A DNA stretch of 42,215 nt from an uncultured Candidatus Saccharibacteria bacterium (lineage in GTDB: Bacteria > Patescibacteriota > Saccharimonadia > Saccharimonadales > Saccharimonadaceae), in NCBI GenBank assembly GCA_947306055.1, contig CAMZFK010000004.1, forward strand, positions 1-42,215, read 5' to 3'. The notes beneath the pieces are model-generated. The model ran no database searches. It had not been told where the DNA came from and saw nothing but the letters and a program-made list of their open reading frames with translations. The number at the start of each line of letters is the position of its first letter. Position 1 is the first letter of the stretch. Positions 34,481 to 42,215 of the stretch are shown piece by piece. The position numbers were made by a program, and so were the translations under genes.

Positions 34481-36220
34481 TTAGATACTCGGTTTAATTT
34501 TTAAATAGTCTATTACGTAATTAGAGAGTTCATCAAATAGCCCTCCCGCTTCCTGACCAGAAAGCGCAGCACCCTCTCCCCACATTTTAACCATTATTAC
34601 GTATTTTGGCAACTCCCCTTCTGGTCCAACGAAGCCGATATAGGAGCCGATCATCTGTTCGTAGTCATCATCATAAGAGCCGTTTACGATTGTCTGGGCC
34701 GTACCGGATTTGCCACCTATGGCATATCCTTTCTTATCGATGCCGCCTTTAACTTTATAGTCACGGTTGTGAATGAGCATTTCACGCATCATCTCCGAAG
34801 TCTCAGATTTTAAGATTTGTTCTCTGACTAAGTCTTTATGTTCAAAATCCACGATTTTACCGTTTTCGATTGTACCCTTCACGATAGTTGGAGTACGCCA
34901 ATAGCCACCATTTATGACGGCTGAAAAGGCAGTGGCAGTCTGTATCATCGTAGCGCTGAGGTTTTGACCGAATGTCATATTGGCATAGGCGGCATTTAGA
35001 CCATAAATTTCTGCATGTGGGTCCCAGATGAAGCCTTCTGCCTCCATTAGTTCGATGCCAGTATTATGGGCAAAACGGAATTTGTTGTAGTAGTAATCAT
35101 AGAGACGTTCCCTTCCCGTGGCAGTAATTTCATCTTTGTTGTCGCCGAGGAATTTAAGAGCTTGGATAGAGCCAACGTTTAGAGACCAATAAAGAGCGTC
35201 TCTCATCGTGATAGTCTGGTTCGTGATTTTGGCGCGTTGCTCAGCATTGCGAATTTGATTGCCATCAACGACAGTGTAGGCTTCATTATAGTATTCTGTA
35301 TCGGCGGTCATTTTCCCTTCGTTAATCGCGGCAGAAAAAGTGAAATTCTTGAAGATTGAAGCCGGCTCATAAGGGACTTCCGTCGTATAGTTTACATATG
35401 CCGAAGCGTCTTTGACGTTGCCGTAATCTCCTGGGTCGTAATTTGGCAAATTTGCCATCGTTAGGACTTCGCCCGTGTTTGGATCCATCACGAGTACCGC
35501 CGCACTAGAAGCATCAGTACTATCGATATGCTTCATGGCGATTTCCTCGATACCGCGCTCGAGACCACGATCGACAGAAAGTAGGATATTTTTCCCGTCT
35601 TCGGCTGGGATTTTGACGTTGTCGTCACCGATAGAAAGCGCTACATTATTGACGTCCGAAATTGTCTTGAGAAGCCCGTCTTTCCCTGACAAAATGTGAT
35701 TTAGAGAGCCCTCGACGCCATATTGGCCAAGCCCGTCGGCATTTACGAAGCCGAGTAGGCCTGAAGCCATTTCGCCCTCTGGATACACACGTTTGTTGCT
35801 TTTTTGGAACCAAACGCCCTCAATTCCCTCTTCGGCTATTTTTGCCGCATCCGTATGTGTGACATTTCTAGCGATAATATAATACCTCAACCCTTCCCTT
35901 TCAAAGATTTCGTCGATATCTGCCGTGATATTGTCCTTAGCGTACTTATTTAAAACAGTCTTTATGCCTTCTTTATCCGTAACGGCTGGGTCGATAATGA
36001 CCGAATAGGTCGTCTGATTCATTACTACAGCGACCGGTTCATCCCCATCCATCATATAAATCTCACCGCGACGCGCAACAATGTCTTTTAGCATCGTGTG
36101 CTGCTCGTTGGCCTTTTCGACCCAAGCGCTATGCTCGATGATCTGGATGAAAAAAAGCCGCACCGCAATAATCGCGAATGCGACAAAAACAATTCTTTTT
36201 AAAATTTTAGTTCGCTGCAT
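34481..36220 (-). CDS. ftsI: Penicillin-binding protein / FtsI-type transpeptidase
   Basis: PAS(I)FKNFTF (SxxK), YWSLNVGS (SxN), GKSGTAQT (KSG). Confidence 0.93.
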   Translation of the reverse strand: MQRTKILKRIVFVAFAIIAVRLFFIQIIEHSAWVEKANEQHTMLKDIVARRGEIYMMDGDEPVAVVMNQTTYSVIIDPAVTDKEGIKTVLNKYAKDNITADIDEIFEREGLRYYIIARNVTHTDAAKIAEEGIEGVWFQKSNKRVYPEGEMASGLLGFVNADGLGQYGVEGSLNHILSGKDGLLKTISDVNNVALSIGDDNVKIPAEDGKNILLSVDRGLERGIEEIAMKHIDSTDASSAAVLVMDPNTGEVLTMANLPNYDPGDYGNVKDASAYVNYTTEVPYEPASIFKNFTFSAAINEGKMTADTEYYNEAYTVVDGNQIRNAEQRAKITNQTITMRDALYWSLNVGSIQALKFLGDNKDEITATGRERLYDYYYNKFRFAHNTGIELMEAEGFIWDPHAEIYGLNAAYANMTFGQNLSATMIQTATAFSAVINGGYWRTPTIVKGTIENGKIVDFEHKDLVREQILKSETSEMMREMLIHNRDYKVKGGIDKKGYAIGGKSGTAQTIVNGSYDDDYEQMIGSYIGFVGPEGELPKYVIMVKMWGEGAALSGQEAGGLFDELSNYVIDYLKIKPSI

Positions 36221-36551
36221 ATCCTGTCACCGTAGAATCTTCCATCGCAGCGGCAACAGTGCTGTTTTTGGCGGCGGCAACTGAAGTGAGCCTGGCCTTT
36301 TCAACGGCGAGATCGTCGCGACGCGCGGTCATATCATCAATTTCGGCTTCAACGGCAGAAATTTCATAATCAAAACTCGTAGCCTTAGTACCTTCGGCGA
36401 CATAAATAAGGCCGAATACTAGCGTAATCATACTGACAACAAGAATTTGAGAAATCGCGCCTAGATTTCGTTTTGTGTAACGGACGGTGTTGCGGCCACG
36501 AGCAAAGCTGATGCCGGCATCTCTCCTTGTTACATAAGTTTGACTTCTCAT
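36207..36551 (-). CDS. Small single-pass coiled-coil protein, FtsL-like by position
   Basis: TM GAISQILVVSMITLVFGLIYVA followed by heptad-like region; immediately upstream of ftsI. Confidence 0.6.
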   Translation of the reverse strand: MRSQTYVTRRDAGISFARGRNTVRYTKRNLGAISQILVVSMITLVFGLIYVAEGTKATSFDYEISAVEAEIDDMTARRDDLAVEKARLTSVAAAKNSTVAAAMEDSTVTGYAAN

Positions 36552-36622
36552 TTTTGATTTTTCCTTTTTTGTATTTTTATTTTTGTTTTGGGTTACTCAT
36601 GAATGTTTGGATATGTTCCTAG

Positions 36623-36675
36623 TCCGGGACTCTTAAGCGCAGAGCTATAAGTAACGCTCAAGAGCTACCCCGGGA
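36623..36675. repeat. Intercistronic hairpin upstream of ftsL-like gene
   Basis: CTCTTAAGCG (36630-36639) / CGCTCAAGAG (36655-36664), 10 bp with one wobble, flanked by CCGGG/CCCGG. Confidence 0.65.
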
Positions 36676-36759
36676 AGGTCATACACTTTTTCACACTCTC
36701 TTTTTGAACCCTATATTTTGGTGAGCCTATTGGCTCATAACGCAGTTTCGGGGGTTCTT

Positions 36760-36785
36760 GGCGGGGCTACTGTGGGAGCCCCGCC
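36760..36785. repeat. GC-rich intercistronic hairpin
   Basis: GGCGGGGCT actgtggg AGCCCCGCC. Confidence 0.75.
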
Positions 36786-36795
36786 ACCGATTTCC

Positions 36796-36861
36796 TTAGC
36801 GGAAATTTACTTTGATTTTTTGTGCGCGAGATTTGTTCGCTACAATGATTTGCTTTGGCAT
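36796..36861 (-). CDS. Small basic ORF (21 aa) between rsmH and ftsL
   Basis: SD AGGAGG-caat-ATG; MPKQIIVANKSRAQKIKVNFR; followed by stable hairpin. Confidence 0.5.
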   Translation of the reverse strand: MPKQIIVANKSRAQKIKVNFR

Positions 36862-36896
36862 ATTGCCTCCTTTTTTGTTTTGTTTTTTTATTTTTA

Positions 36897-37766
36897 TCAA
36901 TTCCGCGCCGCTACTCGCAGCTTGGCGCTTCTAGCACGCGGGTTGATAACTAACTCCTGATTTCCCGCAACTATTGGTTTCTTTGTGATGGTGGTGAGCT
37001 CCGATTCTTCGCCATGGCTACTAGCCTCTTTGAAATAATCTTTGACCAACCTGTCTTCTAGACTATGAAAAGTGATTATCGCAAGACGACCGTCCTTTTT
37101 TAGTAGCTTAGGAAGAAGTGGCAGAGTTTTTTCGATTTCTGCTAGTTCGTCGTTTACTACAATACGGATCGCTTGGAAGATACGTGTGGCTGGGTGGACC
37201 TTACTGTATTTTGACTTTGCAATAATAATATCCGCTAGCTCTTTGGTGTCTTTGACTGGGCGATGATGCACGATTTCTCGAGCCAACATTTTAGCACGAC
37301 CCGGCTTCTCTTCGCCGTATCGGATAAAAATCTCGGCCAGTTCGCGCTCGCTATAGTGATTTACTATGTCGCTGGCGGTTAATTTTTGGCGCTGGTCCAT
37401 CCGCATGTCTAGAGGAGCTGGGGATTTAAATGAAAACCCACGCTCTGGCATATCTAGTTGCGGAGAAGAAACTCCAAAATCCGCAAGTATCATATCAAAA
37501 GTCTTTCCACACTCGAAAAGCTGCAGCACTGCACTATAAAAATCCGTGTGCATAATCGTCGCGCCTTCAAACTCGCTTTTTAGATGACTAATAGCGAATT
37601 CATCGCGGTCGACCAAGACCGAATCTTTGTAATCCTGTGTCGCATCCAAAATCTCCTTAGCGTGTCCACCGTAACCTGCGGTGAGATCTAGATAAGATTC
37701 ACCTTTTTTTGGCGATAGACTTGCTATGACTTCAGATAATAATACTGGGATATGTAATTTCTCCAT
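36897..37766 (-). CDS. rsmH: 16S rRNA m4C1402 methyltransferase RsmH
   Basis: HIPVLLSEVIASLSPKKGESYLDLTAGYGGHAKEIL, ADFGVSSPQLDMPERGFSF, LAIITFHSLEDRLVKDYF. ATG 37766 preferred over upstream start (TATAAT-ATAGGT-ATG). Confidence 0.95.
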   Translation of the reverse strand: MEKLHIPVLLSEVIASLSPKKGESYLDLTAGYGGHAKEILDATQDYKDSVLVDRDEFAISHLKSEFEGATIMHTDFYSAVLQLFECGKTFDMILADFGVSSPQLDMPERGFSFKSPAPLDMRMDQRQKLTASDIVNHYSERELAEIFIRYGEEKPGRAKMLAREIVHHRPVKDTKELADIIIAKSKYSKVHPATRIFQAIRIVVNDELAEIEKTLPLLPKLLKKDGRLAIITFHSLEDRLVKDYFKEASSHGEESELTTITKKPIVAGNQELVINPRARSAKLRVAARN

Positions 37767-38264
37767 ACCTATATTATACATCGTTTGAGAACGCTCAACT
37801 AGAAACTTAGCGTTTTTGTTTCTGCTTTGATTTTTGTTTGATAGCACAATTAATCCACCACGATTTTACCAGCGCGAAGCTAATCATAATATCGCAGCCG
37901 TTGAGAGACTTATTGTGTTTTTTGTGGCCATAAGGCCTATAGAGTTTTTATTGGGAGGTGTGTTTTTAAGGAAAGAACGCACGATTGTTTTTTCGCATCT
38001 CGCTAAATTTTAATGCGCGCTAAACTCCTAGTTGGCCGTTCTCAAACATTTTTAAGGTGCTTTTTTGTTTGTGGTTTTTGTAATCGCTTCCACTAACTTC
38101 AGTTTATTATATTTTTGACAAAAAAGCAAGTGCTTTTTTGGAGATTTTGCGACCTCTTGTACGGGGTAGTTTTCCACAGGTGCGAAAAACTTCCCTGTAA
38201 AAATCCCGAACACCTCAGTCTTGCATTTTTCAATATTCATGTTGTAAAAACCGAACATACAGAT

Positions 38265-40188: not shown

Positions 40189-42215
40189 CTAAGAACCAAG
40201 TATGCAACGGATAGAGGCCCCCCAGTTCAGATAAAATCCAAAACTGCAATCAGACTCCCATTCAGAGCTAAGTACTCCGTCCGATTTGGAATCGCCATTG
40301 TGCGTAGTAGATGACCAGAGTGCGCCTTGGTAGCCTTGACTAGTCATCCAGCCAGTATTGAAGTAGCCTGAAAGAGGAATACGAAGAGCTTTGGCAAAAT
40401 TAATCCTTTTCCGACTAGACTGGGCAGAGAGAGTACTATATTCTCCGCTATTACCACCCGTAGGCATACGCCAACCTACTGGGCAAATGTCTTCGGTAGC
40501 GTTGCCAGAAGATGTACCTGCGCTTGTGCCATCGCCATAGCAGTAACTACCAGCAGAAGCAGCACAGTAGTTATAATATACGCCTATTTTGCCAGAGCCA
40601 GATTGGCCCATGGCGAGAGGCGCCGTAGTGTCTTTAGTCCAGTCACCCTCGCCACCAGTACCACTGGTGGCAATTAGTGGATCTGAATAGCTATTTGAGC
40701 TAGCATAGTTCGGGCTACTTGCCCATTCCGCCACGCCAGAAGTAGCATATTTACCATTCGCATCAGTAGATGGATCTCTTGATGTGATACCTTTGAGGTA
40801 GTTTAGAGTCGTATTTGAGGCATTAGTGTTAGTAGAGGAGAGATTTGCTTTCACCGTAGCGTTAGTAAGGTCTAGCGCTAAGTTATCTAGGAGCCAACAT
40901 CTGTTATCTGCGAGTTTCTGAATAGTATATATACTATTATCGCGGTTATCATAAACCCGTGTTGCTGTGGTTGGGCAGGTAGCCGGAGTAACATTTTGCA
41001 TAGCTAGTGATGGAAAACTTTCTTTCCCACTAAGCGTTAGTGTCCCGGCGCCGGAAACGGTTAAGGTCGTAGAAGCAGAAGAAGTACTAGCTACGGAGAT
41101 ACTACCAGATGTAGACCAGCTGCTAAACTCATAGCCTGAAGCGTAGCTGCCAGAAATGGTATAAGTACCAGCAGTTAAGTCAACGCTAGTAGTATAGTTA
41201 GTGCTATTTATGGTAACACCAGTAGCGTTGCCGGTTAGAGCGAGTGTAACGGTGTATTTGGCTGTCCACATAGCATAGAGGGTGATGGTGCTGCCGGTAG
41301 GGGTAAGCTGGGAGCCTGGGGCGTAGGTGGTGCCGGAGCATGAGTCTGTATTATTGCTCGTGGTTGGTTGGGTAGTGCACCAGCCGAGGAAAGCATAGCC
41401 GGAGCGAGTAGGAGTATTGTTTGAAATTGTGATCGGGTTGACGAAATTGGCACTGCCGGTCTGCTCGGACGGCATGTTTGAGACGGTGTCGTTAGTGTTC
41501 TTATTATAAGTGACAGTGTAGGAGGCGAGTGGATCGAGGACACAACGGACTGAGTAGCCGTAGTAGCGGTTACTAACTTGGCTGATAGTTATAATCGACG
41601 CGCTGATATCCATGCGGTACATATATTTGCTACTGTAGCGCGTAGATGTCCAAAAGAGGCCGTACGAGCCCTGATTGCCCGCTGAACCATTGAGGAAGTT
41701 CCCGGAAAGAGGCATTTTAAGAGCATTAACGAAGGTTGCACCGTCACTAGAATAGGCAGTATAGAGAGCTTTGTATTCTCCGCTTGCTCCACCTGTAGGC
41801 ATGCGCCAACCTGCTGGGCAAATATCCTCAGTGGCATTACCGGAAGGTGAGCCTTCGCTTGTGCCATTGCCATAGCAGTAACTACCAGCAGAAGCTGCAC
41901 AATAGTTATAGTATACGCCTATTTTGCCTGTTCCAGATTGACCCATGGCGAGAGGTTCGAATTGATCTTTGTAGCCTGCATTAACGCGCGCAACGGAATA
42001 GCTATCTCCGGCGGTTAGGTTTCCTAAAGCACCATTGGCATATTGGTCTCCTGCAGCGCGATTGCCAGAGCGGAGGCTAGTAAGTGAAGCAGCTGAGGCG
42101 TTAGTGTTAGAAGTAGAAAGAGCATTTAGGACAGTAGAATCGGTAAGGTCTAGAGCGAGGTTGTCTAGGAGCCAGCATTTGCCATCAGCGAGCTTTTGGA
42201 TGGTGTAGATATTAT
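40189..42215 (-). CDS. Second FISUMP/InlB-repeat surface protein; 5' part beyond the window edge
   Basis: IYTIQKLADNRCWLLDNLALDL, DICPVGWRMPTGG, YYGYSVRCVL, RSGYAFLGWC..LYAMW; frame remains open to 42215, including another YTIQKLADGKCWLLDNL unit. Confidence 0.85.
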   Translation of the reverse strand, partial: NIYTIQKLADGKCWLLDNLALDLTDSTVLNALSTSNTNASAASLTSLRSGNRAAGDQYANGALGNLTAGDSYSVARVNAGYKDQFEPLAMGQSGTGKIGVYYNYCAASAGSYCYGNGTSEGSPSGNATEDICPAGWRMPTGGASGEYKALYTAYSSDGATFVNALKMPLSGNFLNGSAGNQGSYGLFWTSTRYSSKYMYRMDISASIITISQVSNRYYGYSVRCVLDPLASYTVTYNKNTNDTVSNMPSEQTGSANFVNPITISNNTPTRSGYAFLGWCTTQPTTSNNTDSCSGTTYAPGSQLTPTGSTITLYAMWTAKYTVTLALTGNATGVTINSTNYTTSVDLTAGTYTISGSYASGYEFSSWSTSGSISVASTSSASTTLTVSGAGTLTLSGKESFPSLAMQNVTPATCPTTATRVYDNRDNSIYTIQKLADNRCWLLDNLALDLTNATVKANLSSTNTNASNTTLNYLKGITSRDPSTDANGKYATSGVAEWASSPNYASSNSYSDPLIATSGTGGEGDWTKDTTAPLAMGQSGSGKIGVYYNYCAASAGSYCYGDGTSAGTSSGNATEDICPVGWRMPTGGNSGEYSTLSAQSSRKRINFAKALRIPLSGYFNTGWMTSQGYQGALWSSTTHNGDSKSDGVLSSEWESDCSFGFYLNWGASIRCILGS

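Follow-up and report, generated by a model that had tools for sequence, protein, structure and literature searches.

A putative class-wide micro-protein gene and a conserved structured RNA in the rsmH-ftsL gap of Saccharibacteria

Saccharibacteria are tiny epibiotic bacteria. Several bacterial leaders, among them TnaC, Erm and trp, are leader-peptide attenuators of transcription or translation, and in RNase P of the E. coli type a GGU pairs with RCC. In Rhodobacter sphaeroides, the 5' leader of the dcw cluster gives rise to a small RNA, UpsM (PMC5089854). Unannotated small bacterial proteins of less than 50 amino acids have been described (PMC8765459). The RNase P RNA of E. coli cleaves hairpins of 3 bp in vitro when these carry U at -1, A or G at 73, and CCA (PMC3874170), and precedents for RNase P processing of polycistronic mRNA are cited in PMC11143913 (its references 220 and 223).

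We analyzed the gap between rsmH and ftsL in a 42,215-nt stretch of DNA (the window) from an uncultured Candidatus Saccharibacteria bacterium. Because ftsL, ftsI, mraY, ftsW and murG are tightly packed or overlapping, a gap of 345 nt is unusual within the cluster; the initial annotation had remarked on this, and the gene coordinates agree. The features of the locus are as follows.

36897..37847, minus strand: rsmH, the 16S rRNA methyltransferase gene upstream of the gap (Pfam Methyltransf_5, 2e-93)
36552-36896, minus strand: rsmH-ftsL gap, 345 nt (rsmH ends at 36897, ftsL starts at 36551)
36866..36871, minus strand: Shine-Dalgarno AGGAGG of the micro-ORF, read from the sequence and kept in nearly all 91 Nanosyncoccus loci
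36796..36861, minus strand: probable micro-gene, 21 codons, MPKQIIVANKSRAQKIKVNFR (class-wide conservation beside rsmH; pN/pS 0.24)
36760..36785, minus strand: P1, a GC-rich variable hairpin GGCGGGGCU/AGCCCCGCC (arm also given as GGCGGGGCT), from the fold; variable or missing in relatives
36617..36740, minus strand: conserved structured RNA core (model R1), from covariation; own-genome match E 4.7e-20
36719..36737, minus strand: P2, hairpin U-GAGCC-AATA-GGCUC and then A-CCA, its 3' end acceptor-stem-like (helix 1, 99.1% of cells paired; RCCA in 53/54)
36673..36683, minus strand: near-invariant UAUGACCUUCC (alignment A3)
36624..36673, minus strand: P4a (CCGGG/CCCGG) and P4b (CUCUUGAGCG/CGCUUAAGAG) with conserved loop UUACUUAUAGCUCUG (helices 2 and 3)
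36207..36551, minus strand: ftsL, the gene downstream of the gap, placed by its position between rsmH and ftsI (the DivIC/FtsL-type match is weak, E 0.15, below cut-off)

The minus-strand start AGGAGG-caat-ATG and the 21-codon ORF described by the initial annotation were correct at every coordinate checked (GGAGG 36870-36866, caat, ATG at 36861, stop 36798-36796). The three hairpins it named were likewise found, with the GAGCC/GGCTC stem inside UGAGCC/GGCUCA (36737-36722, minus strand) and the CTCTTGAGCG/CGCTTAAGAG stem at 36664-36630 (minus strand). Positions 36552-36900 fold at -95.1 kcal/mol vs -64.35 +/- 4.68 for 100 dinucleotide shuffles (z = -6.57). Elsewhere in the window (40189-41946, minus strand), a 585-aa ORF with two similar repeats (MGQSG[TS]GKIGVYYNYCAASAGSYCYG...) resembles a repeat-bearing surface protein.

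Homologs of the gap were present in nearly all genomes of the same genus, Nanosyncoccus, always between rsmH and ftsL. An ORF of 21-24 codons with a strong Shine-Dalgarno lies in the same place at 91 distinct Nanosyncoccus loci, and a degenerate pattern of the ORF start, run over named genomes, retrieved 73 loci, nearly all from Saccharibacteria and including Candidatus Nanosyncoccus alces and oral taxon 351. All 75 distinct ORFs of 21 codons have M1, P2, Q4, I5, S11, R12 and F20 in common. A dN/dS-type comparison of these ORFs, as the initial annotation had proposed, gave a pN/pS of 0.15/0.64 = 0.24, an excess of synonymous change that indicates purifying selection; because synonymous differences are near saturation in this estimate, the true ratio is probably lower. 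The initial annotation had also named a lack of conservation in near relatives as the result that would count against it, and this was not what we found, since both the ORF and the hairpins are conserved there. At one locus (L032, genome G014) the gap has grown to ~950 nt with internal repeats (CATTGCCTGCGGT) and retains the micro-ORF and RNA core, and in genus g32 (L116-L119) copies of a TTTATTTTGACCGATAAA-like sequence follow the micro-ORF, upstream of the RNA element.

A profile HMM of the Nanosyncoccus peptide gave weak matches in many other families, directly downstream of rsmH, and loci from these families, when read, had an ORF of 19-21 aa directly after rsmH (MPIQVKNLSRAYKVKVRVG and variants). 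Loci for the counts were fetched by RsmH alone to avoid circularity. The ORF followed rsmH at all 30 of the rsmH loci drawn across the order, at 27 of 27 family loci (L219 included, whose ORF starts with GTG) and at 4/4 class loci beyond that order (MAIKVKALGNSLRAQKVEVKVLSLVRA, MSIKVQGVSRKVNITKRIRVKK, MSIKISNLSTKAVSVKVKVRKK and MTLVIKNRTPHARKVKVRVK). The encoded peptides are basic, 19-27 aa long, and have the class consensus MPIxVxxxSRAxKVxVRV. The median distance is 24 nt between the rsmH stop and the start of the ORF, with frequent overlap, and 94.5 nt between the end of the ORF and ftsL; a properly spaced ribosome binding site precedes the ORFs (L123 and L163 are the exception).

As a background, we used the class-peptide profile to score 1,097 micro-ORFs that follow a Shine-Dalgarno in 400 kb of the genome of a relative (G129). 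The best of these was that genome's own rsmH-adjacent copy, which was set aside, and the next best scored 5.0 bits. Of the class loci, 101/105 lay above this maximum (some genomes were fetched twice), scores that are partly by construction as the profile was built partly from these loci; this does not apply to the background or to the outgroup, where 0/26 loci from Patescibacteria of other classes exceeded the maximum and the micro-gene is absent. Two of the four class loci under the background score are diverged copies (L222 and L224), and the other two, from one genome (L123 and L163), have an ORF with no clear Shine-Dalgarno. Across 333 genomes of the phylum, there was no convincing match outside the class. 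The small-protein reading in the initial annotation is thus strongly supported by a 19-27-codon ORF that is under purifying selection and conserved class-wide, and the 21-codon ORF is probably a real, previously unrecognized micro-protein gene.

Conservation is spread over the peptide as an alternation, I-x-V ... S-R ... K-V-x-V-x-V, which we infer to be an amphipathic beta-hairpin that would be too short to fold by itself. Variants in one family (f1) are changed in the center of the peptide. Searches of Pfam and PDB found no relative of the micro-protein. Mimicry of the RsmH C-terminus (NPRARSAKLRV vs NKSRAQKIKV) was considered and dropped (p = 0.04 for the window peptide and 0.34 for the class consensus).

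An alignment of 54 Nanosyncoccus sequences (A3) supports helices P2, P4a and P4b in the RNA downstream of the micro-gene. Over these helices 89.3% of cells are paired, with two-sided covariation in 19/22 pairs (15/16 in helices 2 and 3). Cells with two-sided change numbered 218 vs 61.5 +/- 8.1 after shuffling (0/500 shuffles as high), and the covariation score was 0.523 vs 0.223 +/- 0.010 shuffled, while slid structures reached at most 0.178. In the same alignment, UAUGACCUUCC and the loop CACUUAUAGCUCUG are near-invariant. A further hairpin, P3, is present in most relatives and was left out of the RNA model because it is weak in the window's own copy. A covariance model of the core (~124 nt) matched 53/246 family genomes, all within 2/61 genera (Nanosyncoccus and one sister genus) and nearly always in a single copy. 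One genome with 3% contamination (G696) has two matches, at C28:4664-4790 and C19:20788-20915, from either a duplication or a mixed bin. A Nanosyncoccus subclade (L021, L030, L057, L059, L089 and L112) has the P4 loop CACUUAUAGCUCUG replaced by GCGAUGCGRUGGUGCGG-like loops, and its P2 RCCA signature is mostly gone; L087 retains just AUGACUUUC-helix-GACUA. No Rfam family matches the gap (best 17.9 bits vs a threshold of 43), and it contains no tRNA or tmRNA. The sequence after P4 is rich in A and has no U-tract. Among relatives, the distance between ORF and structure varies widely, as does that between structure and ftsL. An intrinsic terminator was rejected, as the gap has no terminator-like site on the minus strand. 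From the sequence comparisons, we regard the RNA as a feature separate from and narrower than the micro-gene.

In genera other than the two with the large RNA, a single hairpin usually occupies the interval from micro-gene to ftsL. Stems of 5 bp or more with RCCA directly after them were found in 43/80 class gaps vs 3.95 +/- 2.1 after dinucleotide shuffling; about half of the gaps show no match this strict, and other tetramers directly after the stem were much rarer for their abundance than RCCA. Among gaps whose strongest hairpin stops precisely at RCC, the most frequent stem lengths are 12-13 bp and G predominates at N+1; in Nanosyncoccus, P2 has U directly before a G..C stem and then RCCA in 53/54 sequences. 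Across the 400 kb of G129, 1 or 2 of 113 intergenic hairpins had an RCCA-type end, one being the rsmH-ftsL locus. The tRNA genes read here encode CCA, and the two in the window show the same ACCA-A-rich flank. The canonical GGU between P15 and P16 was not found in 6/6 Saccharibacterial RNase P RNAs inspected (Rfam alignments; L265-L270; L269:1501-1844), and an RNase P RNA of this type together with CCA-encoding tRNA genes looks like an unusual combination.

Such a hairpin could act as an RNase P site, in which case the enzyme would cut 5' of the acceptor-stem-like hairpin and its R-CCA and free an ftsL mRNA with a 5' hairpin. The stem lengths, the G at N+1 and the RCCA exactly after the stem are consistent with this, as are the P2 signature of Nanosyncoccus, the minimal hairpins cut by E. 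coli RNase P RNA and the polycistronic precedents cited above. However, the GGU that would pair with RCC is missing from all six RNase P RNAs inspected, CCA is detrimental in cyanobacteria, whose RNase P likewise has no GGU (PMC4264200), the U at -1 would be able to pair with R73, and the exact signature is missing in about half of the gaps, so we consider RNase P cleavage unlikely. It may instead be that hairpin-ACCA forms a tRNA-like 3' end that, as in tRNA, protects the rsmH-micro-gene mRNA once exonucleases have trimmed it back. The CCA-encoding local tRNA genes and the shared flank of the window's two point in this direction, but the same sequence data also fit RNase P, and we judge end protection quite unlikely. 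Because of the missing GGU and the cyanobacterial CCA effect, we kept the two as forms of one boundary idea.

For the Nanosyncoccus RNA, a riboswitch, a protein-binding ftsL leader or a processed trans-acting small RNA is possible but doubtful. Near-invariant UAUGACCUUCC and CACUUAUAGCUCUG between covarying helices, the normally single copy per genome and the precedent of UpsM favor such a role, whereas no conserved expression platform was seen between P4 and ftsL, Rfam gave no match, and only two genera carry the RNA. The initial annotation had proposed a leader peptide or attenuator controlling division genes, which would mean that ribosome stalling on the micro-ORF reshapes the RNA and sets ftsL translation or transcription. 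A short ORF of near-fixed length with a strong Shine-Dalgarno, placed immediately before a structured region and ftsL and conserved at the amino-acid level, is what this reading would expect, and a peptide of 19-27 aa fits within the ribosome exit tunnel, as a nascent-chain function in cis would have it. However, the gap has neither a U-tract after P4 nor a terminator-like site, and the distances from stop to hairpin and from hairpin to ftsL are not fixed. Within the family sample only two genera have the large RNA, yet the peptide persists in the others, and the distance of the micro-ORF is tied to rsmH rather than ftsL. The beta-strand pattern runs over the whole peptide with no C-terminal stall motif, and the f1 variants alter its center. 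We therefore regard stalling as distinctly unlikely; of the regulatory claim, the conserved RNA structure is borne out by covariation and the leader-peptide or attenuator role is not.

On balance, and with some reservation, we favor a trans-acting micro-protein encoded in a class-wide rsmH-ftsL operon, plus a separate intercistronic RNA boundary element. The micro-ORF would be an ultra-short protein gene and a regular member of the operon throughout the class, translated from its own Shine-Dalgarno and often closely coupled to rsmH, presumably by co-translation. Its basic, beta-hairpin-like amphipathic product would most likely work in trans and contribute a strand to a larger cytoplasmic partner. 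Action in trans is suggested because the ORF is near rsmH but far from ftsL and the peptide is kept where the large RNA is not; the basic character of the peptide and its position after rsmH make the 30S subunit or RsmH side a first guess for the partner. The RNA further downstream would mark where the rsmH-micro-gene message gives way to that of ftsL, probably via mRNA processing or end protection. This element would usually be a single hairpin, enlarged in Nanosyncoccus and one sister genus to the ~124-nt conserved RNA, whose invariant loops suggest a function more specific than a boundary. More tentatively, as a proposal that could well be wrong, the micro-protein may be obligatory in the division/cell-wall operon of the class as a beta-strand cofactor of RsmH, the 30S subunit or the divisome, with a tRNA-acceptor-mimicking hairpin that sets off ftsL and that evolved into a new regulatory RNA in Nanosyncoccus.

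A gene of 19-27 codons kept by nearly every class member examined, in a lineage with reduced genomes, is likely to matter. It falls below the usual length cut-offs of gene finding and would therefore escape Tn-seq, structural and comparative work on Saccharibacteria. Cultured Saccharibacteria with genetics exist (PMC10633639), so the need for the micro-gene in division or ribosome maturation is directly testable. With the covarying RNA and the tRNA-like hairpin between cistrons, the dcw operon would gain a layer of RNA processing. A literature search, which fell short of most subscription papers, found nothing on either the micro-gene or the RNA. Small proteins and structured intercistronic RNAs are known kinds, and both members described here appear to be new.

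The gap resembles the leader-peptide attenuators TnaC, Erm and trp in having a short Shine-Dalgarno-led ORF before a structured region and a regulated gene; unlike them, it has no terminator and no fixed geometry, and its class-wide peptide occurs without the large RNA. Like UpsM, the Nanosyncoccus RNA is a structured RNA inside a division/cell-wall cluster, but UpsM is located upstream of mraZ and has a Rho-independent terminator at its end, whereas the Nanosyncoccus RNA lies between rsmH and ftsL, after the micro-gene, with no U-tract. The gap hairpin shares U at -1, G+1:C72 and R73-CCA between cistrons with the minimal and polycistronic RNase P substrates (PMC3874170; references in PMC11143913). 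It differs from them in that the cognate Saccharibacterial RNase P RNAs inspected do not have the RCC-reading GGU, and it is a candidate substrate. Finally, the micro-gene is operon-embedded, Shine-Dalgarno-led and under purifying selection, as are the small proteins of less than 50 amino acids (PMC8765459), but unlike typical members of that group it encodes just 19-27 aa and is syntenic through a whole class.
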